Below, piece after piece: positions 6,994 through 33,568 of a stretch of 33,568 bases of DNA (the first letter of the stretch is position 1; every line of letters begins with the position of its first letter). The notes under the pieces are model-generated. The model was not told the DNA's origin and made no database searches. It saw nothing but the letters and a program-made list of their open reading frames with translations. The stretch spans positions 1-33,568 of the IMG/VR virus record IMGVR_UViG_3300044610_000059. One strand, written 5' to 3'. This stretch comes from a virus. The translations under genes and the position numbers were made by a program.

Positions 6994-9465
6994 ATGCTAT
7001 CCATCGGAAACGACAACTTCTCACTTGCTGTCTTAGATCAAGACGGCAAACCACCAGAAACACGAATCTCCAACGCAAGTCACGCTTGGAATATAGCAAA
7101 TCATTTGCGACTCGCTAACATCGGGCGCGAGAACAAGCGTATTCGTATCTATAAGGCGTATAAGATGTTTCCGCCTACGGGTTACAGTAAGCTCGCTGAA
7201 AAGCGTTTGCCTTGGCAATCTGATGTAAACTACGGACAACTTGGGTTCATCGTTGATAACCAGAAGTCCAGTTACTACGATGTTATTACAGAGCGGCAGG
7301 CTTGCTGCACGATCAAAAGTAAATTTGGCAATGAAAAAGAACGCCTCGTTAACTCAGAGAACATCGGAATCGCATTTGACCAAGCAATCCGCGAATGGCC
7401 CGGATACCTCTACAATACAGAACAAGACCTTGAGGAAATGTTGCTGTATGGAAAAGGAATCGGAATGTGGGATAGCCCACTCGGATGGATGCCAGAACAC
7501 GTTTACCTCTCCGACCTTCTATTTCCAGACGACATTAGGATCGACTTTTGCAACCTTGAAGAATTTGTGCGCCGTGTCCGTTTGACACCATACGAACTTT
7601 ACAAGAAGATCGAGAATCGTGCAGCGGCAGAAGCAATGGGTTGGAATGTGGACGCAGCAATTGATGCTATCCGTTTCCATCGTGCATTCAGCAACAATCG
7701 CAAGACCCGCGAAGACTTCTTCCGAACAATCAGCGAATCTGGATTCAACTGGTCACTCTCCGTAAACCAAAAGATCGACCTCTACGAAGTTTACTGGAGG
7801 GAGTTCGACGGCAAGATCAGCAAGGCGATTATCCTTCAAGACTATCAACCAATCTCGGACTACATCAACTCCAACATTAAAGGAGCAGGCAAGATCAGTG
7901 AAGATGATGTCAGAAGCCAACACGGGTTTATGATGCTGAAGATTGGACTCTTCAACTCATGGGACGAGATCATGTATATGCTGACTGACTCAGTTGGCAG
8001 TGGACTATTCCAAGACATCAAGAGCCAAGCAGAATCGGCATTCGTCGCCTGCCGTCAGTATGACTTCACAATGAACTCGTTGGTTGATGCCGTGCGCCTC
8101 AACTCCATGTTGATGATCGAAGGTCAAGGGCCAGATGCAACCAAGATGTTGAAGCAAATGGAATGGTTGCCTATTAGCGTAATGCCAGATGGCGCAAAGT
8201 TTATCCAAAACCGCTTCCAGCTTCCAGTAGCAGAAAGCATGAGCTTCATGCAGTTCTTCATGGGAGATATGTATCGCGGCATGGGTCAGTATCGCATCAA
8301 TGCTCCTACCGCTGGTGGAAAACAAAGGACAAAAGGCGAAGCAGAACTGGATGCCGCCGAGTCAGCCAAACTATCTGGAACTCAGATTCGTCGATTCAAC
8401 GAGTGCCAAACACTTTACTTCAAACAACTCTATAAACGTTTTGTAAATGCCAAGTCCAGCGATGATGGATACGAGTATGTTAAGAAGTTTTATGAAGTAT
8501 TGGAAGAACTCGGAACTCCGAAAGAAGCCGCTGCTTGGAAGAACATCACAAGCATCCGTTCCAATCTAATCAACGGAGCAGGTAGCCCGTCATTCAAACT
8601 TATCACAGCAGAAAAGTTGCTTGGTATCACAGCAATCACTCCAGCCAACGAAGGGCAAGAGAACGCAGTTAAAGATGCAATCGCGGCACTGTCTGGCAGG
8701 GACAATGTAGCTCGCTATCGGAATACCAAGCCAACTAAGATTACTGATACCGCTCGCGTAATCGGGTTTGAAAATGCTGGAATGACGGATGCGTTCGTTA
8801 ACCCGCAAAACTTCCCTGTATTGCCAACTGATCCACATATCGAACACGCTGTTGGTCACTTGCAGGATATGATGATGCAGTTGCAGATGAACCTGCAATC
8901 TGTGCAACAAGGTCAACCAGAACTTGCAGAACTTTCCAAAGCAGTCCGTTCAGTCAAATTCAAAGGTGGTCACATCATGGCGCACGTTGAATATATCAGT
9001 AAGGATGAATCCAAGCAGGACTTCTTGAAGCAATTCATGCAGGGAATGAATGAAGCGCAAGCAATGGCCGACGAACTTCAACAAGTTTATGTCCAGATGG
9101 CTGAAGCTGAAGCTCAGAAATCTGGTCAGCCAAACTCCGAGGAAGACATCAAACTTCAATACCTCGCTGCTAAATCTGGTATCGAAATCGACACCAAGAA
9201 GAAGCTCGCTGACATCTCAATTGGCAAGGCTTCTATCAGTCACGCTCAACGCACTGAGCAGCGCAAGGAGCAAGGCATCACTCAACTCGCGCTTCAGAAG
9301 GCTAAAGCTCGCGCCGAGATTCAGAAAGAGAAATCCAAGCAAGCAGCAATGCAAGGTGAAGCTCCAGAGATGGAAGAAGAAGAAACCGAAGAGGTTGAGA
9401 CTCCAGAGGCAACTGAAGAAGTTGAGATGGAAGAGACTCCAATGCAGACACCAACACAAACATGA
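6994..9465 (+). CDS. Portal protein
   Basis: The 823-residue protein would form the dodecameric channel through which DNA is packed and ejected. It is placed right after the terminase and before the scaffold and capsid genes, has the size of podovirus portals (700-830), and its start MLSIGNDNFSLAVLDQDG is followed by long helical segments. The region RLPWQSDVNYGQLGFIVDN and the stem and crown-like helices (residues about 640-770, Gln/Lys/Glu-rich) fit. The last about 35 residues are acidic with many Glu (EMEEEETEEVETPE). The start lacks a Shine-Dalgarno and instead follows the palindrome. Assigned by size, context and general resemblance. Confidence 0.85.
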   Translation: MLSIGNDNFSLAVLDQDGKPPETRISNASHAWNIANHLRLANIGRENKRIRIYKAYKMFPPTGYSKLAEKRLPWQSDVNYGQLGFIVDNQKSSYYDVITERQACCTIKSKFGNEKERLVNSENIGIAFDQAIREWPGYLYNTEQDLEEMLLYGKGIGMWDSPLGWMPEHVYLSDLLFPDDIRIDFCNLEEFVRRVRLTPYELYKKIENRAAAEAMGWNVDAAIDAIRFHRAFSNNRKTREDFFRTISESGFNWSLSVNQKIDLYEVYWREFDGKISKAIILQDYQPISDYINSNIKGAGKISEDDVRSQHGFMMLKIGLFNSWDEIMYMLTDSVGSGLFQDIKSQAESAFVACRQYDFTMNSLVDAVRLNSMLMIEGQGPDATKMLKQMEWLPISVMPDGAKFIQNRFQLPVAESMSFMQFFMGDMYRGMGQYRINAPTAGGKQRTKGEAELDAAESAKLSGTQIRRFNECQTLYFKQLYKRFVNAKSSDDGYEYVKKFYEVLEELGTPKEAAAWKNITSIRSNLINGAGSPSFKLITAEKLLGITAITPANEGQENAVKDAIAALSGRDNVARYRNTKPTKITDTARVIGFENAGMTDAFVNPQNFPVLPTDPHIEHAVGHLQDMMMQLQMNLQSVQQGQPELAELSKAVRSVKFKGGHIMAHVEYISKDESKQDFLKQFMQGMNEAQAMADELQQVYVQMAEAEAQKSGQPNSEEDIKLQYLAAKSGIEIDTKKKLADISIGKASISHAQRTEQRKEQGITQLALQKAKARAEIQKEKSKQAAMQGEAPEMEEEETEEVETPEATEEVEMEETPMQTPTQT

Positions 9466-9710: not shown

Positions 9711-10994
9711 ATGGCAGACCCAAACGACACAGCAGAAGTAATCAAGGAACTGAAGGCTAAACCTCAAGTTCCGATTAAAGGTAATACATCTGACTTCCTC
9801 AAGAAGTTCAGCAAACAACAATCCGACGAAGGCAAGCCAAGTGCTACCAATGTTGGTGATCCTAACCTTGGAATAGCAAAATACAATGAAGAAGAACCAC
9901 CAGAAGAAGTGGCGGGAGTTACCGAAGCTGAAATCACATCTGACCGAACAGGAAAAAAGAAAGGTTTTGTTGAGCGACAAATCGAAGAAAACCGAAAGCT
10001 CAAAGAAGAACTTGAGAAATACAAGAAAGATGAAATCCCCAAGTTTGAAACCAAAATCCAAGAACTTGAGCGAATGGTCTCCGAGTCAACATCGACTAAA
10101 GAAGCCAACCACTACCAAGAACAACTCAACAAAGCCAACCAAGAGAAGTTGGAAGTTGAGCAACAACTATCAGAACAGATCAAAGAGCTTCGGGGTAAAC
10201 TGGACTTCCACGACATCACAAGTAATCCAGATTTCAAAAAGACTTACCTCGATCCTATCAAAAGCACCTACGATACTGCGCGACAGTTTGTTGAAAATGA
10301 CGCAAATGTTCTTAGGGAATTTAACAATGCTGTCAACGCAAACGCCGCCATCTTCCGCGCCACGACCGAAGAGGAAGTTGTTTCGGCAAAGCAAGCAAGA
10401 AAAGAAGCATTAAAAGAAATTGAGCCTTACTTATCTGATTTTGAAAAGTATCAATTTGTTGAACAATGGAATAAGTTTGTAAATTCAACTGAAAAACATC
10501 ACGCTGCTCTTGTCAACTTTGAAGAAACCAAGCAGAATATCCTTCAAACCGCTAAACAAAAAGAGCAAGAAGGCAGGAACAAGTATCTGAACCAGTGGCG
10601 TGAAGGCTACAAAAATACTCAGCAGGAAATTGACCGGGCGACTGAAATCCCAGATACAATTGCTGACTACATGAAGGAGAAGGGAATCAAGTATGACATC
10701 TCCCGCGACGAGGCTATTGCTCTGGCAGCTACCCAGCAGACCAATGAGCAAGCATCAGTTGAAGACATGAACCGACTGATTCACCAAGGCCGCGCCTATC
10801 AGAAGATTCAAGCACAACTGAAAGCATACCAAGAGATGGTAAAAGAGAAAGACGATTACATCGCACAACTGAAAGGTTCGTCGCGCATTTCGTCATCATC
10901 AAGTGCATCGGATTCCCAGAAACCAAGAATGAGTATCACGGAAGGACTGGCTGCTAAACTTGCAAGGTTCTCACCGCAAGGTCGAACAGCATAA
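9711..10994 (+). CDS. Scaffolding-like protein
   Basis: The 427-residue protein is dominated by Glu/Lys/Gln coiled-coil helices (about residues 80-170 and 270-390), has no cysteine-rich or catalytic motif, and ends with a Ser-rich segment (RISSSSSASDSQK) followed by a helical Arg-rich tip (GLAAKLARFSPQGRTA). Phage scaffolds typically have this composition and a basic C-terminal capsid-binding helix, and lie just upstream of the major capsid gene, as here. A strong terminator follows. Confidence 0.75.
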   Translation: MADPNDTAEVIKELKAKPQVPIKGNTSDFLKKFSKQQSDEGKPSATNVGDPNLGIAKYNEEEPPEEVAGVTEAEITSDRTGKKKGFVERQIEENRKLKEELEKYKKDEIPKFETKIQELERMVSESTSTKEANHYQEQLNKANQEKLEVEQQLSEQIKELRGKLDFHDITSNPDFKKTYLDPIKSTYDTARQFVENDANVLREFNNAVNANAAIFRATTEEEVVSAKQARKEALKEIEPYLSDFEKYQFVEQWNKFVNSTEKHHAALVNFEETKQNILQTAKQKEQEGRNKYLNQWREGYKNTQQEIDRATEIPDTIADYMKEKGIKYDISRDEAIALAATQQTNEQASVEDMNRLIHQGRAYQKIQAQLKAYQEMVKEKDDYIAQLKGSSRISSSSSASDSQKPRMSITEGLAAKLARFSPQGRTA

Positions 10995-14048: not shown

Positions 14049-15380
14049 ATGCCATTCAAATTTAATCCCTTTACTGGCAAGCTCGACAACGCGCCGGGCG
14101 CACCTGTCTTCAACGATTCCAAGTTTCGCGTATTCGACAACGGAGACGCTAGCAAAAAAGTTGCATTGGAGCTTTCTGGTGTAAGCCCTAGCACTACTCG
14201 CGTATTGGACATCCAAGATGTGGATGGCCCCGTGGCTATTGGCTACGGCCTAGCTAACCAGTATATCCGTGGAGACGCGACGATCTCCAACTTCCCTGTG
14301 GCTGCTGGTGGAGGAAGCTCGGTCAGTTACTACTTTAACGGGTCAGTGAGCCAAGGGACGATCTTGGGCAATCCTTACTACGAGATCAACAAGGTTCCAG
14401 CGGGTGCAGCACAAACCAACTTCCCGATTAACGCAGGAAGCACGACCGCCTACTTTATCACGGACGCGAATGATCCCGCGCTTCTTCTGATCCCACAAGG
14501 TAACTTTACCTTCCAACTTTATTGCTCCACAAGTAGCGGCAACCCGCAACTCGCGGTGGCACTCTACAAGTATGACGGAGCCGTCTTCACCCAAATCGGC
14601 GCAACAAGCCCAGCGGCGACGATCAGCAATACCACCTCAGACATCCACTTCCTCACAGTCGCAGTCCCCGCCTCTACTACATTGGCACTCACAGACCGAC
14701 TCGCAGTCCGCGTGATTGGTTCAAGCCTCGGCGGTCACACGATTACTCTGAATACGGAAGGCAACACGCAGAGCCAGATCATCACGACCTTCTCGACTGG
14801 ACTTGCCGCACTCAATGGTCTTTCTGACCAGATTCAGTTCTTCTCCACGGGAACCACAGGAACCGATTTTAACATAGTTAGCTCGGCGGCTACCCATAAT
14901 TTTAACATTCCAGTAGCCAGCGTGGCAAACACAGGAAAACTCTCTTCCGCAGACTGGACAACCTTTAACAATAAGGTCACATCTGTAAGCGGAACCGCGC
15001 CCATTGCATCTTCCGGAGGAACCACTCCGACAATTTCAATTCCACAAGCAACCGCACTTGCCAATGGATACCTTTCATCCACGGACTGGTCTACATTTAA
15101 TGGGAAGATTGGATCAGGACTCTACACTGCGACTACTGGGCTTACGATGAACACCGCACGCTTGCTCGGTCGATCCACGGCAGGAACAGGAGTTGCAGAA
15201 GAGATTTCAATTGGAACAGGATTGTCATTGTCTGCTGGCACTCTGTCTAATGCTGGCGTTTTAAGCGAAACAACTGGAATTACTGGAGCAGATAAAGTAA
15301 CAAATATTGTATCTCTCACGCAAGCGGAATATAACGCTATAACGCCAAATGCATCAACTCTTTACATTATAACAGACTAA
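14049..15380 (+). CDS. Tail fibre protein
   Basis: The 443-residue protein begins MPFKFNPFTGKLDN, a virion-attachment type N-terminus widespread in phage fibres. A beta-rich middle (about 85-260) is followed by fibre-stalk repeats: two copies of the LSSADWTTFNNK / LSSTDWSTFNGK motif (about 297 and 342) and LLGRSTAGTGVAEEIS, typical of trimeric fibre shafts. The C-terminus ends AITPNASTLYIITD. It would bind the host surface. It starts 1 nt after the previous stop and overlaps the next gene by TAATG. Confidence 0.85.
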   Translation: MPFKFNPFTGKLDNAPGAPVFNDSKFRVFDNGDASKKVALELSGVSPSTTRVLDIQDVDGPVAIGYGLANQYIRGDATISNFPVAAGGGSSVSYYFNGSVSQGTILGNPYYEINKVPAGAAQTNFPINAGSTTAYFITDANDPALLLIPQGNFTFQLYCSTSSGNPQLAVALYKYDGAVFTQIGATSPAATISNTTSDIHFLTVAVPASTTLALTDRLAVRVIGSSLGGHTITLNTEGNTQSQIITTFSTGLAALNGLSDQIQFFSTGTTGTDFNIVSSAATHNFNIPVASVANTGKLSSADWTTFNNKVTSVSGTAPIASSGGTTPTISIPQATALANGYLSSTDWSTFNGKIGSGLYTATTGLTMNTARLLGRSTAGTGVAEEISIGTGLSLSAGTLSNAGVLSETTGITGADKVTNIVSLTQAEYNAITPNASTLYIITD

Positions 15381-16510
15381 TGCCTACCACTACTGGAAAA
15401 ATCTACCTTGGCAGCACTCTTATCTCCAGTGGCGCATTCACTTCTGGGTGGGTTCGCCCAAGCGATTGGATTGCCATGCCAACAATTATCTCAACAGAAC
15501 AAAAAGTTGCCGCTCTTTTTCTTGTTGGGGATAATGACAGCAATTTTGTTGCGTTTCGTTTTTCTGGAAACCACACAGTCGATTGGGGTGATGGCAATAT
15601 TGAAAATGTTGTAAGCGGAGTTACGGCAGAGCATAACTATGTGTTTAGTAGCCTCTCCGCATCAACAGAGATCGGGCCGGTTGGTTCTAAAATGCGGCAG
15701 GCAATGATTGTGGTTACGCCTCAAGCAGGACAAAATCTAACATCTGTCTCATTTGATTTTAGGCATTCGTCACTCGGCACGACAACATACACTACTCCAA
15801 TCCTTGAAATTACATTATCCGCTCCGAATTGCACAACATTGGATATTGGAGGAACGACAGGAAATTTAAGACTGCTTGATCAATGCACTATCCTTTCACA
15901 TAATACGATTAGCGCATCTAATATGTTTAATGTGTGCGCCTCACTTCAGAGCATTCCCTTATTCGACACTTCTTATGTAACAAACATGACGAATATGTTT
16001 AATGGATGCGCCTCACTTCAGAGCGTTCCTTTATTCGACACTTCTTCGGCACAAAACATGACGAATATGTTTTCTGGATGCAGCACACTTCAGAGTATTC
16101 CGTTATTCAATACTTCTTCAGTAACAACCATGAACAATATGTTCAATGGTTGCAGTATACTTCAGAGCGTTCCTTTATTTAATACTTCGGCGGTAATAAA
16201 TATGGGAGGTATGTTTAATGGGTGTAGATCGCTTCAAAGTATTCCTAATTTTGATTGTTCAAGTGCAACAGCATCTTCGTCATTTGCAATAAATTGCAAC
16301 GGACTCAAGCGTTGTCAAGCAACAGGAATAAAAACAAATGTTTCATTTGCAAGCTGCTCTTTAAGCGCAACAAGCCTCAACGAAATTTACACTAACCTTG
16401 CCGATTTAACTGCGCTACCGACACAAACTATAACTGTCACTGGCAACTACGGTATAGCGACCGACAACCCTGCAATTGCAACAGCAAAAAATTGGACTGT
16501 TGTAGGATAA
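15380..16510 (+). CDS. BspA-like leucine-rich-repeat adhesin
   Basis: The 376-residue protein has an IYLGSTLI-type N-terminus, a PKD-like VDWGDG motif (about residues 72-77), then five tandem 24-residue repeats of the BspA/DUF285 type (MFNGCASLQSVPLFDTS) at about 182-301, and a C-terminal TALPTQTITVTGNYG domain. Such repeats form a beta-solenoid surface with exposed loops. They are best known from bacterial surface proteins, so a receptor-binding function is likely. TAATG coupling to the fibre gene suggests the two may form one complex. Confidence 0.8.
   Translation: MPTTTGKIYLGSTLISSGAFTSGWVRPSDWIAMPTIISTEQKVAALFLVGDNDSNFVAFRFSGNHTVDWGDGNIENVVSGVTAEHNYVFSSLSASTEIGPVGSKMRQAMIVVTPQAGQNLTSVSFDFRHSSLGTTTYTTPILEITLSAPNCTTLDIGGTTGNLRLLDQCTILSHNTISASNMFNVCASLQSIPLFDTSYVTNMTNMFNGCASLQSVPLFDTSSAQNMTNMFSGCSTLQSIPLFNTSSVTTMNNMFNGCSILQSVPLFNTSAVINMGGMFNGCRSLQSIPNFDCSSATASSSFAINCNGLKRCQATGIKTNVSFASCSLSATSLNEIYTNLADLTALPTQTITVTGNYGIATDNPAIATAKNWTVVG
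15923..16282 (+). repeat. Five tandem 72-bp units encoding leucine-rich repeats
   Basis: Units begin at 15923, 15995, 16067, 16139 and 16211, each starting ATGTTTAATG or close. DNA similarity is high between adjacent units, falling in the fifth, which suggests recent expansion. Confidence 0.8.
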
Positions 16511-17770: not shown

Positions 17771-19459
<1,689 letters not shown>

Positions 19460-19518: not shown

Positions 19519-20157
19519 ATGAGTTGCGGAAATTCCAGAAGTTCTAAATGCAATCCATGCGGCCCAAGTGAGGCGGCAATGAACTCGATTGCAGATCGTG
19601 CAGCTTATTACGCTCGTATAGCTATAGTTGCTTCAGAGACTGGTGGCGGTATCCGTTGGGGATACATTGGGGATGGGACTGAAGTTACCTTCAATATTGA
19701 TGGAGCCGCGACAACCAATAGCGCATCATTCCTTGTAACGATTGATGGAGTAGTCCAAGACCCATTGGATTACACAATCACCCAAGGATACCCATATACC
19801 ATCACAATGAACAATCCAGTCCCATCTGGTGATGAGATTGTTATTGTATCATTGAATGGTAAGACTGGCGCGACTGGCCCCGGAGCAGGCGCAACTGGCC
19901 CAATGGGGCCAACTGGTGCAACTGGCCTTACGGGTGCAACAGGGCCGGGTGCTGGTGCTACTGGATCAACTGGAGCTACTGGCCCCGGAGCTATTGGGGG
20001 ATCGGGAACAAATGAAGTATTTTTCTTGAATGACCAATCGGTGACTGCCAGCTACTCAATTCCATCAACAAAAAACGCAATGACTGCTGGGCCAATTACA
20101 ATTGACGCAGGGGTTGTCGTAACAGTCCCAAGCGGATCAACATGGACAGTAGTATAA
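19519..20157 (+). CDS. Short collagen-like fibre protein
   Basis: The 212-residue protein has a Cys-rich start (MSCGNSRSSKCNPCGPSEAA), a helix with ADRAAYYARIAIVASE, a beta domain (about 45-112, IDGVVQDPLDYTITQG; a fold I recall from phage fibre shoulders), a short collagen stretch (about 113-162) and the same C-terminal cap as the longer collagen-like protein. The two probably are alternative or stacked fibre components. Translated from a palindrome leader. Confidence 0.85.
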   Translation: MSCGNSRSSKCNPCGPSEAAMNSIADRAAYYARIAIVASETGGGIRWGYIGDGTEVTFNIDGAATTNSASFLVTIDGVVQDPLDYTITQGYPYTITMNNPVPSGDEIVIVSLNGKTGATGPGAGATGPMGPTGATGLTGATGPGAGATGSTGATGPGAIGGSGTNEVFFLNDQSVTASYSIPSTKNAMTAGPITIDAGVVVTVPSGSTWTVV

Positions 20158-25784: not shown

Positions 25785-26747
25785 ATGGCTGATACCCTCG
25801 AAGAGATGGTAGAGCTTGTGAAGGGTTTCTGCGGAGACTCTGGAACTTGCTCGTATGAGCGCGGAGTCAAGGCCGTTAATCAGGCTCGTAGATTGTTGTG
25901 GAATAAAAGGGCATGGAGTAGCCAAGAAGAGTATGTTCAAATTTGTTGTGTTGATGGGTGTTTTACTCTTCCAAATAGGTATGAACAAATAAAGTTGGCA
26001 TGGGTAGGAAATGATTCTGTTAGTTTGAATGAGGAATGGTTCAATGCGACCAACGCTTTTGCTCTCCACGCAGATCACTCATGCCATAGGTTGATTACAG
26101 AAGTAGGAGGACTCCATGTCCTCTTCCGCGATTATACTACACGTCCATATCAAATCGGGGTAATGGCCGAAAAAGCTGAAGACATCGGCGTAGAGTTGAT
26201 GTTTGAAGCACAAGACCAGTATGACACCTACCACAAGGTCAAGGTAACTACTGCCAATCCTCCAACGCTGGCGAAGTCTGATCTTCTTGTCAAAGGGATT
26301 CGGGCAGTCAGCAAGCCAATTACCAAAGGTAGGATTCGCGTGTATGCCTACGATACAGAATTGGAAGCAAAGACGCTGATAGCAATCTATCAACCGAACG
26401 ATGCTAATCCAACCTTCCGTCGATTCAAAGCACCAAGGACTTGCGAGTGCATCACGCTTTACGCATCGAAGAAATACTTTGATCTGACCGATCCAAAGGA
26501 ATTGGTTGAGTTCATCCCAGATGCGATGATCTATGCGGTTCTTGCATTGAACTCGCGTGAGAATCGTAAGGCGCAAGAGTTCTTGAGTAACCTGTCATTG
26601 GCCGTGCAGGAGCAAGAAAAGGAAATGGAAGGCTTAGAAATCCCTACAGCCGCACCGATCCGATTCGCAAACTATAGTCGGGCAGACAACCTAATCGGTG
26701 CTGATATATTGTCACCAACACCAAACGATTACTTCCTCTATCGATGA
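25785..26747 (+). CDS. Head-tail adaptor-like protein
   Basis: The 320-residue protein begins with a helical MADTLEEMVELVKGFCGDSG stretch, then RGVKAVNQARRLLWNKRAW and a beta-rich middle (CFTLPNRYEQIKLAWV), with ELVEFIPDAMIYAVLALNSR helices near the end. Podovirus adaptors (gp11-like) share the pattern of N-terminal helices for portal binding then a beta tail interface. It sits between nozzle and ejection genes. Assigned by context and general resemblance only. Confidence 0.6.
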   Translation: MADTLEEMVELVKGFCGDSGTCSYERGVKAVNQARRLLWNKRAWSSQEEYVQICCVDGCFTLPNRYEQIKLAWVGNDSVSLNEEWFNATNAFALHADHSCHRLITEVGGLHVLFRDYTTRPYQIGVMAEKAEDIGVELMFEAQDQYDTYHKVKVTTANPPTLAKSDLLVKGIRAVSKPITKGRIRVYAYDTELEAKTLIAIYQPNDANPTFRRFKAPRTCECITLYASKKYFDLTDPKELVEFIPDAMIYAVLALNSRENRKAQEFLSNLSLAVQEQEKEMEGLEIPTAAPIRFANYSRADNLIGADILSPTPNDYFLYR

Positions 26748-27232
26748 ATTTAACAATTCCAGACAAGATTGAAGCAAAGAGCGTAATTGGATATGGTGAT
26801 CCAAACTACGAGCTAAACTTGATGGACTTGGAGATTCTAAAACTTCCTCCACGGGAATGTCCGCTGGTGCATAGGTTTACTCCGGGTATGTATATTCGGG
26901 AAATCTATATGCCGAAGGATACGATTCTGACAAGTTTACTCCATCTCACTACGCATCCATTCTTCGTGATGAAAGGTGATGTGACTGTCTGGTATCATGG
27001 TATCCCTGCCCACCGATATAAAACAGGCTACAGTGGCATCACAGAAGCGGGAACGAGGCGTTTGTTGGCTACTCACAAAGACACAATTTGGACTACCTGC
27101 CATGTCACAGACTTAACTGATCCAGACGAAATTATTGACAGCATCACTTCAAGAGACTTTAATCCCCACATCGCCAAGGAAGACCCAAGGGTGCAGAAGT
27201 GGCGGCACAATCGAACCGACTTAATCAAATGA
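26744..27232 (+). CDS. Cupin-like phage protein
   Basis: The 162-residue protein has a double-stranded beta-helix pattern: VHRFTPGMYIREIYMPKDTI, TTHPFFVMKGDVTVWYHG, ITEAGTRRLLATHKDTIW, TCHVTD. These are the strand pairs and turns of a cupin barrel (H-x-P/F, G-D-V-x-V-x-x-x-G). I recall this protein in many environmental phages near tail genes, with unknown ligand. It overlaps both neighbours by ATGA. Confidence 0.7.
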   Translation: MNLTIPDKIEAKSVIGYGDPNYELNLMDLEILKLPPRECPLVHRFTPGMYIREIYMPKDTILTSLLHLTTHPFFVMKGDVTVWYHGIPAHRYKTGYSGITEAGTRRLLATHKDTIWTTCHVTDLTDPDEIIDSITSRDFNPHIAKEDPRVQKWRHNRTDLIK

Positions 27233-29836: not shown

Positions 29837-32800
29837 ATGGCTACAGAGTTCATTGAAATCTCCGAAGAAGAATATCAAGGAGGGCCAAGTGATTTTATTG
29901 AAATCACAGAAGAAGAGTTTAATACACCTCAAGAACCAGTAGGCACTTCTATTGGTCAAGAAATCTCGCAAATACCAGCGGCACTCAAGCAATCGTTTGG
30001 TCAGCCACTTGAAGCTATGGGAGAGACGGCGCAAGTTGCTGGATTCCCCGCAGTAGCCACAGCATTGAAAGGTGCGATTCAAGAGCCAGAAGGTTATGTA
30101 TCAGCGGGTGAACGCTTCATGGCTCCCAAAGAAGGTGAGTTCCAGATTGCAGGGTTTGCCCCTCAGTATGCACCAAGAGCGGTTGTAGAACAAACTGGTC
30201 AGATTATTGGAAGCATTGGGACTCGTATTGCTGGTGCGGTAACTCTTGGTGGTCTTGGCGGGTTAATAGGTGGTGGTGGCGGGGCTGTTACAGGTGCAGC
30301 AGCGGGTGCATTTGCAGGCCCAGCGTTGTTTGAAGCAGCGCAGATCGTTGGCCCAGTTGCCTTGGAACGAGCAAAAAACAATGGCTACACAGAACCAACC
30401 GATAAGGATATGGCTTACGCTATAGCAACCGCTGCTGGTTCTGGTTTACTGAATGCTTTCGGAGCTAAATATCTCCCGGGTGGCGAGAAGGCAGTTGGTT
30501 CATTTGCTAAACGACTTGCTGCTTCTTTCATTGGTGAAGGCATTCCAGAAGGATTGCAATCATTCACGCAACAAGTTGGTGAGACTATAGAAACTGAAAA
30601 AGGAATACAGGTTAATCCTAAACAAGCTATCGGTGAAGCATTGATTGGTGGCGCGGCAGGCGCGGCAGCTACTACTATCGCTGCACCATTTACACCAGAG
30701 CAAATCGCAGAAGCCAAGATTACTGAAAGCGCAAACAAGGAAGCTGAGAATCTTTTTATCGGAAACGATAATCCACAGGGTAAGGCAGTGCTGGCTAACA
30801 AACAAAAGTTAGAACAAGAAATCGCGGATACCAAGCAAGTGCTGTCAGTCATCGAATCAACTGATCCAATAGCACAGAAGCTGAAGCTGGAACTAAGGGA
30901 GAAAGAAGCCATCCTCGCGGCAGCACAAGGCCAAGTAGATAGTATCGTTGAATCCGCTGATCCAGTAGCAGAGGCAAAAAAGCAACAGCTCGAATTAGCA
31001 AAAGCGATTACCACTCCAGAAGCTGCACCAAAACCACTACCGACTGATGTATTACCTACCGAGACACCGGGCGCAACCTATGGCAGAGAAGAACAAGTCT
31101 ATGATGTATTCGGGGACATAACGCGCAAACCAGTATCTATACCTAAACCTGCTGAATTACCTGCCGCGCCTACGATTGAAGAACAAACCGCAGAGGGAAC
31201 CTATGGAGGACAAACTGGAGTGTTTGATGTATTCGCTGGAGCAAGAAGGAAGCCAGTAATCACCGAAGAACCGCCAGTATCTATGGCAGGCAAGGAAGTA
31301 ATACCGGGCATTACGCCTACGCCAGTGGTTTCTACACAACCTAAAGCAACCAAAGAAGCCATAGCATCCGCAACGAATGTAGCCAATCAAATTGAGGAAG
31401 AAAATAAGGTTCTTGAGCAACAGAAAAAATTCAGCCCACCAACTGCACCAACTTTACAGGATGCGCGTAGTCTTCCAGATGCAATTGCAAAGAAAGGCAA
31501 AACGCTTTCAATTTCTGGAGGCAAGCAAGAAAAGAATATCCTTGATCCAAAGGAATCAAAGAAAAGATTTGATGAGATAGGATACGAGCGGCAAGCATTG
31601 GAACTTCCAGAGGACATGAATGATCGTGTGTCTGGTAGATATGGGAATGCTATCGCCAACATTAAATCCTTGTATTCATTTGAATGGTTGGGCGCACATT
31701 TTCATGGTGGGGTTGCTGTAAATCCAGAAGTAAAAGGAACGCAAAGAGGGCGAATCGTAGCACATGAACTTGGTCACGCATCGCACTCGCTTCTTGGTGA
31801 TAAGATCAATAAAGATCAAAATGTCCTTAATGAACTTCAAGCGATAGAAGAATTACTATATCCGGGCTTGCGAGCAAAAGTATCAGCGGCAAGCAATCCA
31901 GATGCAAGTTTCTTCAATTACCTTCTTTCACCAAATGAATTAATAGCCGAGTTCAATGTTGAGCGGGTTTCAAATCCAGAACGAGCAGCACAAGTAGCTC
32001 CAGCATTATCTGCATTACTTGAATCCGCCGAAAAGATGAAGGGTCTTGTTGCTGATAGAAAAACATTCCCAACAATTATGGGTGTTATTAGGGAAAGCAA
32101 AGAAAGACTTAAAGTAAAAGACCTTGAATCAAGAAAAATTAAAGAAACAATTGGGGATGTATTAAAAAATAAAAGTAATCAATTGTCTAATACGGCAAAA
32201 TTCGTAATAAATCGAACAAAACAAGGGGAGTTGGATTGGGCTAAAATAGGTCTTCGTAATTTAAAAAGACAAAAAGCCACCAAAGAATTTGCCAAGCGCA
32301 CCGCAGAACTAACTGGAAACCAAGAGTTGATTGATTATGTAGAAGAACTATATCCAGCAGAGGCCGCACCAGTTGCGCCAACCGCTCCCGCACCAGTCAC
32401 CGAGCAAGCTGCACCAGCAGAAGCTCCCGCGCCAGAGGTTGCGCCTGCTCCAACAGAATATAAGGGTAAAGTTAAACGAGAATACGATAGCGGAATTAAG
32501 GCTGGAGAAGCCGCTACATTTGAACCAACAGGAGTGTCTGCTGAGGCAATTTCTTCGATGGAGCTTGATGACATGAGAAAAGATGTCAGAGCAGCGAAAG
32601 ATAAAAGTTCTGGAAACGCTATGGTTCGCGCTTATCGCCACGGCAAAACGCAAGGCAGAGTGAATCGAAATGCGCCTGTATTTGCTGAAGCAGTAGAAGC
32701 CTATGGCGTCACACTACCAGAAGGCTACACCAAGCAAGGCGACCTGTATGTTTACCAGCCCACCCCCGCAGTATCGGAAACAATAACAGAGCCAGAAGCG

Positions 32801-33568
32801 GATACTCGATACAACCCGCTTGGTTACGACATCGCTGATGTTGTTGAAGATATTAAGCAAGGCAAGACAAGCACTCCGCTTAAAGCAGTAAACCAAGTAA
32901 TCAAAGAATCTACTGATCTTCGCAAGCGTGTTGCTGCTGAATCCGCTCGTCGCCAGCAACCAAGAAAGATGGGCAAAGCTGCGATATTGGAACGAATCGC
33001 AAGGGAACGCAGTGCTGGTAACATCAACGAGAATACAGCAAAGGCACTCACAGACTTTATCAATAGGATTAATGAAGATGCAATCTGGGATACGGCTATT
33101 TCCATCCGCGCAAAAGGAGTCAGCAACTACGACTTCGCTGATAACCTCGTCACATTCTTTTTAAACCAAGACAAGGGTGACTTCGGCGCATCTGTAGGCA
33201 TCCATGAGTTTTGGCACGGGTTGTCTCGCTTCTTGCCGGACGCTGAAGTTGAGAAGATCAACAAGGATTACACGAAAGAACTGGCAGACTACCTTAAAAA
33301 GAATCCGTGGTTCTTGGCCTTTGTTGGAAGATACTCGCTGACTCCAGAGCAGTTTGAGGCATACAAGTTTTTCAACCCCAAAGAAGCTGAAACTAAACTC
33401 ACCCCAGTCAAAGACGAGCAGGGCAATATCGTAAAATACAATATCAAGTTCGATAAGGATAACTACCGCTACATCATGCTGGATGAGTTCATCGCGGAGA
33501 AGATGACTGACCTTGTTCTTGGTAAGCAACAAGAGCCTAATACATTTTTAGGAAAACTCGCCAAGGTA
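29837..33568 (+). CDS. Giant internal virion protein with two zincin motifs (partial)
   Basis: The ATG at 29837 opens 1244 codons that continue past the right edge. Order: duplicated acidic start (FIEISEEEY and FIEITEEEF), a Gly/Ala-rich hydrophobic segment (about 120-172), a coiled coil (about 310-390), two copies of a TYG...VFDVF/VYDVF...KPV motif (about 413 and 454), a first HELGH (H643-E644-H647) with NELIAE at 700-705, an Ala/Pro-rich linker (about 836-875), and a second HEFWH (H1123-H1127) with DEFIAE at 1216-1221. Both look like zinc-metalloprotease domains with a Glu third ligand. A palindrome copy encodes FIGND at about 307. Confidence 0.75.
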   Translation, partial: MATEFIEISEEEYQGGPSDFIEITEEEFNTPQEPVGTSIGQEISQIPAALKQSFGQPLEAMGETAQVAGFPAVATALKGAIQEPEGYVSAGERFMAPKEGEFQIAGFAPQYAPRAVVEQTGQIIGSIGTRIAGAVTLGGLGGLIGGGGGAVTGAAAGAFAGPALFEAAQIVGPVALERAKNNGYTEPTDKDMAYAIATAAGSGLLNAFGAKYLPGGEKAVGSFAKRLAASFIGEGIPEGLQSFTQQVGETIETEKGIQVNPKQAIGEALIGGAAGAAATTIAAPFTPEQIAEAKITESANKEAENLFIGNDNPQGKAVLANKQKLEQEIADTKQVLSVIESTDPIAQKLKLELREKEAILAAAQGQVDSIVESADPVAEAKKQQLELAKAITTPEAAPKPLPTDVLPTETPGATYGREEQVYDVFGDITRKPVSIPKPAELPAAPTIEEQTAEGTYGGQTGVFDVFAGARRKPVITEEPPVSMAGKEVIPGITPTPVVSTQPKATKEAIASATNVANQIEEENKVLEQQKKFSPPTAPTLQDARSLPDAIAKKGKTLSISGGKQEKNILDPKESKKRFDEIGYERQALELPEDMNDRVSGRYGNAIANIKSLYSFEWLGAHFHGGVAVNPEVKGTQRGRIVAHELGHASHSLLGDKINKDQNVLNELQAIEELLYPGLRAKVSAASNPDASFFNYLLSPNELIAEFNVERVSNPERAAQVAPALSALLESAEKMKGLVADRKTFPTIMGVIRESKERLKVKDLESRKIKETIGDVLKNKSNQLSNTAKFVINRTKQGELDWAKIGLRNLKRQKATKEFAKRTAELTGNQELIDYVEELYPAEAAPVAPTAPAPVTEQAAPAEAPAPEVAPAPTEYKGKVKREYDSGIKAGEAATFEPTGVSAEAISSMELDDMRKDVRAAKDKSSGNAMVRAYRHGKTQGRVNRNAPVFAEAVEAYGVTLPEGYTKQGDLYVYQPTPAVSETITEPEADTRYNPLGYDIADVVEDIKQGKTSTPLKAVNQVIKESTDLRKRVAAESARRQQPRKMGKAAILERIARERSAGNINENTAKALTDFINRINEDAIWDTAISIRAKGVSNYDFADNLVTFFLNQDKGDFGASVGIHEFWHGLSRFLPDAEVEKINKDYTKELADYLKKNPWFLAFVGRYSLTPEQFEAYKFFNPKEAETKLTPVKDEQGNIVKYNIKFDKDNYRYIMLDEFIAEKMTDLVLGKQQEPNTFLGKLAKV
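30756..30771 (+). repeat. Palindrome TTATCG-N4-CGATAA, intragenic copy in giant protein
   Basis: TTATCGGAAACGATAA is read as FIGND in frame, the same peptide and GAAA loop as in the terminase. Confidence 0.85.

Follow-up and report, generated by a model that had tools for sequence, protein, structure and literature searches.

The window, which is the whole stretch of DNA analysed here (33,568 nucleotides), is an entire 33.6-kb linear virus record that ends inside a giant gene. Situated after tail-type genes, its last ORF (29837..33568, + strand, as are all features of the gene described below) is the 5′ part of a putative polyvalent-protein gene, which encodes 1244 residues and is open at the contig end, the 3′ end being missing; complete relatives of the giant span 2001–3556 residues. 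Searches of Pfam and PHROG with the whole protein and its domains returned zero assignments above cut-off. The sequences compared (designated L003, L004 and so on) are metagenomic contigs throughout, and no cultured relatives were found for either the giant or the 823-aa putative portal.

The N-terminal part comprises a chassis (29932..31026), Gly/Ala-rich and then charged, with DNA identity of 84–89% to L009, L079, L067 and L060. It includes a PVGTSIG segment (29936..29956) that is conserved at the DNA level and constitutes an N-terminal joint, with 18-mers common to 9 of 68 giants. A preliminary description of this DNA had proposed a hydrophobic N-terminus, but the maximum KD value is 1.36, with no scanning window at transmembrane level, and residues 120–285 are Gly/Ala-rich (40% G+A). 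Next is a Pro-rich segment (31067..31351), with DNA ~90–93% identical to L061/L051 and 97% amino acid identity to L004. The repeated VFDVF motif described earlier does occur here in two copies, within a TYG....V[FY]DVF....RKPV unit, of which the copy at 421 in fact reads VYDVF and that at 462 VFDVF. Downstream lie a first zincin domain (D1), a short linker termed joint A, a small module, joint B and a second, truncated domain (D2).

Two predicted zincin-type domains

The two motifs from which the preliminary description started, HELGH (residues 643–647, 31763..31777) and HEFWH (residues 1123–1127, 33203..33217), are confirmed to lie in one frame, 480 residues apart, each in a predicted helix. 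Both are followed by an [N/D]ExIAE motif, NELIAE from residue 700 and DEFIAE from 1216, which begins 57 and 93 residues beyond the leading His of its HExxH, against the 58 and 94 originally given. Composition-preserving shuffles contained at least one HExxH in 0.4% of cases and two in 0 of 20,000, so a chance origin of the pair is negligible. Moreover, aligned homologues gathered by searching viral contigs, 13 for D1 and 16 for D2, show no variation at the His, Glu, His and downstream Glu.

D1 as modelled (31463..32155) was examined using alignment A4, whose 13 sequences share invariant GxHxxG, HELGHASHSLL and NYLLSxxE elements, and an AlphaFold model of good quality (pLDDT 82.7, pTM 0.84). 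In the model, HELGH falls within helix 92–116 (local pLDDT ~90), preceded by short strands (68–69, 77–80 and 83–86) whose order would suit the three-stranded sheet of zincins, and the predicted third ligand, Glu701 in SPNELIAEF (31937..31939), invariant in the 13 sequences, lies in a later helix (157–170). The best PDB neighbours found by Foldseek are mostly zincins, including lethal factor, PprI/IrrE, a metal-dependent hydrolase, Certhrax and ArdC; none is significant, and as every E value is 0.077 or worse they lend support rather than proof. The model thus strongly supports a zincin topology for D1, with a predicted metal site. A full-domain match in the viral library was to one unnamed protein (48% identity, TM 0.86). 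A separate, weaker D1-type match was to minor-head or hypothetical proteins of Xanthomonas/Stenotrophomonas phages (E 5e-3). D1 stays below the Pfam cut-off (best E 0.0014, for a homologue), and a pattern-seeded search of bacterial genomes yielded no homologues. Profile matches to solved neurotoxin proteases span just ~25 residues round HExxH at E ~0.7 and were not taken as a sign of kinship.

D2 (32807..33568) is truncated by the contig end, with ~56 residues more in relatives. Its 16-sequence alignment, A3, has invariant HEF-H, YR, DE and E-D positions, and the predicted third ligand, Glu1217 in YRYIMLDEFIAE (33485..33487), is likewise invariant in 16 sequences. Conservation of the D2 motif is partly a selection effect, as HEFWH belonged to the search patterns; the downstream Glu was absent from the patterns behind alignment A1. 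The AlphaFold model is weak (pTM 0.49) and places the motifs in helices 121–142 and 225–239; a fold search starting from it found no match, and comparison with Pfam gave nothing above cut-off. Conservation and this model together support a zincin-type assignment for D2, its metal site being predicted.

The HExxH motif and predicted third ligand, on which the zincin reading had been staked, both fall in helices, of a confident model for D1 and of a weak one for D2. A reading as two matching domains does not hold: D1 and D2 have no homology to each other that hhalign can detect, and a tandem duplication was rejected on the same grounds (probability only 3.5%). Sequence comparison shows two separate families of zincin-type metallopeptidases, each with HExxH and a downstream Glu, whose activity is predicted. 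The earlier proposal of two such domains in a giant phage protein of the delivered type is thus well supported for D1, and for D2 to the extent that conservation and a weak model allow.

Polyvalent proteins and the role of the zincins

The window protein fits the class of phage polyvalent proteins, which combine at least two disparate domains per chain; here these are the two unrelated zincins, with varied domains in relatives. Giants with D1 carry SLT, DprA_WH, MutS_I, or SAP plus ART-PolyVal as partner domains, and those with D2 carry LPD23 or helicase/methyltransferase domains; ART-PolyVal directly follows D2 in L009 (below its cut-off) and L011 (above). According to Iyer et al. 2017 (PMC5512222), 36% of polyvalent proteins hold 1–5 MPTases, with more than one in ~8% of those. 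As several MPTases per chain have already been described there, the double zincin is itself not new, and its supposed rarity is further weakened by the 14 of 68 related giants with two or three HExxH motifs, in a non-redundant set chosen partly by zincin domain or by joint. At least eight HExxH families are scattered over the related giants. In L024 and L026, for example, giant ORFs of ~4700 aa combine a HELVH, a HEFWH and a HEIQH domain, all different, with LPD23 lying between the latter two in L024, and in L011 and L020 another HE[VI]GH domain precedes D2, in the slot of the window's D1 and linkers.

The resemblance to the proteins covered by Iyer et al. (PMC5512222) includes the giant multidomain chain, sometimes with several MPTases, and the ART-PolyVal, SLT, MutS_I and LPD partners found in the window's relatives. 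In contrast to those MPTases, neither domain scores above a Pfam cut-off, and D1, while sharing the conserved His near strand 2, has His rather than Asp three residues past HExxH. Similarly, the N4 virion RNA polymerase (PMC12633501) is a giant protein that is ejected and has HExxH in one of its domains (C1), but here no RNA polymerase was found, the two zincins are unrelated, and the cargo is variable. From its class, gene position and optional zincins, the giant protein would probably be a component of the virion that enters the cell together with the DNA.

Both D1 and D2 lie in tracts that comparison shows to have been recently exchanged between phages. Structural genes of the window are ~70–81% identical in DNA to those of relatives, whereas the D1 cassette (31346..32436) is 97.2% identical to L003 and the D2 tract 94.2% identical to L005/L006. 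By Nei-Gojobori estimates, for which dS above ~1 is near saturation, dS between the window and L003 is 0.07 in D1 versus 1.57 in a 668-aa tail gene; between the window and L004 it is 0.26 in D1 versus 2.2 in the comparison gene, and for D2 with L006 it is 0.26 versus 0.69–0.89. The two travel separately, L003 and L004 being without D2 (L003 is open at its end) and L005/L006 without D1. Moreover, the closest partner shifts along the gene, from L079/L009 in the chassis, through L061/L051/L004 in the Pro-rich segment, to L003 in D1 and L006 in D2.

The zincins are also optional. L061, L082 and L092, whose portals are 95–98% identical to that of the window, have complete giants without HExxH or HExxxH, and L079 (portal 99%, chassis 93%) has no HExxH in 1823 aa, reaching into the C-terminal chassis. 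Such gain and loss would be surprising for a self-maturation protease that the phage cannot do without, but not for an effector. The pattern therefore favours an effector, and of the two targets suggested in the preliminary description, host proteins or the ejection proteins themselves, it favours the former. The giant has a shared N-terminal chassis followed by cargo domains, including D1 and D2, that pass between phages as cassettes; the protein would travel in the virion and enter with the DNA, and D1 and D2 would act mainly on host proteins.

A long-standing question is whether zincins in polyvalent proteins are directed at the phage protein that contains them or at proteins of the host. 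Self-processing, in which they would divide the giant into separate units, either in the head or once delivered, is the main proposal of Iyer et al. 2017 for this class, with the processing of DdrB in phage P1 as a precedent (PMC5512222), and the linkers that separate the domains would suit it. Given that complete giants of sister phages have no zincins and that D1 and D2 are exchanged independently, we consider it rather unlikely here, although zincin-free giants may use another protease. Because sister phages with and without zincins exist, the question is testable. Still less probable is that D1, D2 or both have a zincin-like fold but no protease activity, and serve in scaffolding or packaging. 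The C1 domain of the N4 polymerase likewise has HExxH, and Iyer et al. (PMC5512222) note that encapsidation of the N4 polymerase depends on its MPTase region and that the polymerase is packaged unprocessed; the weak D2 model would also accommodate an inactive fold. However, neither the catalytic Glu nor any presumed ligand varies, and dN/dS is low between close copies of both D1 (dN 0.007, dS 0.07) and D2 (dN 0.018, dS 0.26).

In-frame joints at the cassette edges

Joint A (32387..32447), encoding the linker APVTEQAAPAEAPAPEVAP, contains a 29-mer found in 23 viral stretches, with flanks that fall to chance. It is followed by the small module (32451..32758), the C-terminal end of which recurs in L053, L058, L080, L084, L092, L094 and L096 with other downstream modules, and by joint B (32759..32795), encoding the linker PTPAVSETITEP, with a 22-mer found in 44 viral stretches. 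Both joints are near-identical across genes with differing neighbour modules, and exact scans placed every occurrence in frame, inside a long ORF. K-mer counting over the 68 giants revealed a third joint in 13 of them. The core identity of the joints is a given, as the core was the search seed; the result lies in the abrupt fall beside it and in the combinations. Copies of joint B are ~1.0 identical inside, but within ~10–15 nt on either side their pairwise identity is down to chance level (0.26–0.33), and clustering of 70-aa flanks (blastp, E 1e-4) gave 24 upstream and 21 downstream clusters in 35 combinations among 37 occurrences, cluster numbers that depend on the thresholds. The window's upstream module alone pairs with seven downstream modules. 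Thus, in the region studied, comparison shows that the edges of the cargo cassettes coincide with short in-frame linkers that have many partners.

Conservation of the joints extends to the codons. Between the window and L010, joint A has 17 codons without synonymous change and joint B is identical at 36 of 36 nt; D2, beside the joints, has a pS of 0.745. A degenerate search for the joint B peptide PAVSETIT, which is independent of codon choice, found CC[C/A]-GCA-GTA-TCG-GAA-AC[A/G]-ATA-ACN, i.e. the same codons nearly everywhere, in 46 of 46 instances in related giants, and different codons in three long ORFs of other contexts. Such codon-conserved joints are not mentioned in the available portion of Iyer et al. 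(PMC5512222). Mosaic podovirus ejection proteins (PMC8954989) also swap domains with one another, but here the same near-identical DNA joints are used again and again, each with many partners. Smug et al. 2023 (PMC10684548) have likewise described recent shuffling of domains in proteins of phages; in their text a term search finds no mention of ejection proteins, polyvalent proteins or linkers.

That the joints are assembly chimeras formed at short repeats, as the short common core (~30–60 bp) and purely metagenomic contigs might suggest, is very improbable, since the same combinations recur in separate assemblies (L076/L085/L093 and L088/L097), the reading frame is kept at every joint, each joint has just one or two copies per searched record, and close relatives fetched by protein rather than by joint also carry joints. 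Among contig pairs, sharing is one-sided in 19 (the upstream 120 nt in six, the downstream side in 13) and two-sided in four, these four being from separate assemblies. Joint B was not found in bacterial genomes, nor were the joints found in cultured phages.

The joints are not confined to close relatives. The putative portal (6994–9465, named by size and order alone) is 92–99% identical in six joint-bearing relatives, 78–79% in two, and 21–24% in others such as L058, which nevertheless shares ~60 nt of joint A with the window mismatch-free; joints and modules therefore cross deep lineage borders. As to the agent, 12 relatives were searched: an ERF annealing protein was present in two, whereas tyrosine integrase, RecT, Sak4-type protein and YqaJ were found in none. 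Recombination over short homology, by an ERF-type or a host system, is plausible; the linkers would then serve as homology tracts through which new cargo combinations would arise in frame. The 5-bp inverted repeat of the joint B consensus (TATCG-GAAA-CGATA) is broken in the window's copy (CAATA, one mismatch) and was not taken to mark a recombinase site. A stronger version, which we regard as possible but tentative, is a dedicated cassette-exchange system, in which DNA-constrained joints (A, B, the third and the N-terminal) would be kept as sites of recombination, allowing domains of delivered effectors to be recombined in frame across distant lineages, even at ~22% portal identity.

Taken as a whole, a polyvalent giant with cassettes swappable at the joints, delivering optional, predicted proteases directed at the host, is probably the best explanation of the locus. 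The unexpected part is the modular assembly, which suggests how phages may quickly re-arm against their hosts. Joints and cassettes offer a sequence-level handle on the re-assortment of proteins that phages deliver early in infection and, as most cargo modules match no family, the joints could be used to search for anti-host domains that are still unknown, while D1 and D2 provide two candidate protease families.

The D1 cassette of L003 is situated between two direct copies of joint A (9764–9835 and 10844–10923, which match the window's joint A at 82.7% and 92.5% identity); with this arrangement the cassette could be lost or swapped. Mosaicism is also seen elsewhere in the window, in a short tail-fibre-type gene (26744–27232) with dS of 0.31–0.52 to L003, L004 and L009, and saturation with L006. 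Further upstream, repeated MFxGCxxLQSxPLFDTS units (15380–16510) have the look of a leucine-rich-repeat-like surface protein, with PHROG matches of unknown function, and a long, GAT-rich, collagen-like tail fibre (17771–19459; Pfam Collagen, E 5e-37) is followed by a shorter, similar protein (19519–20157).
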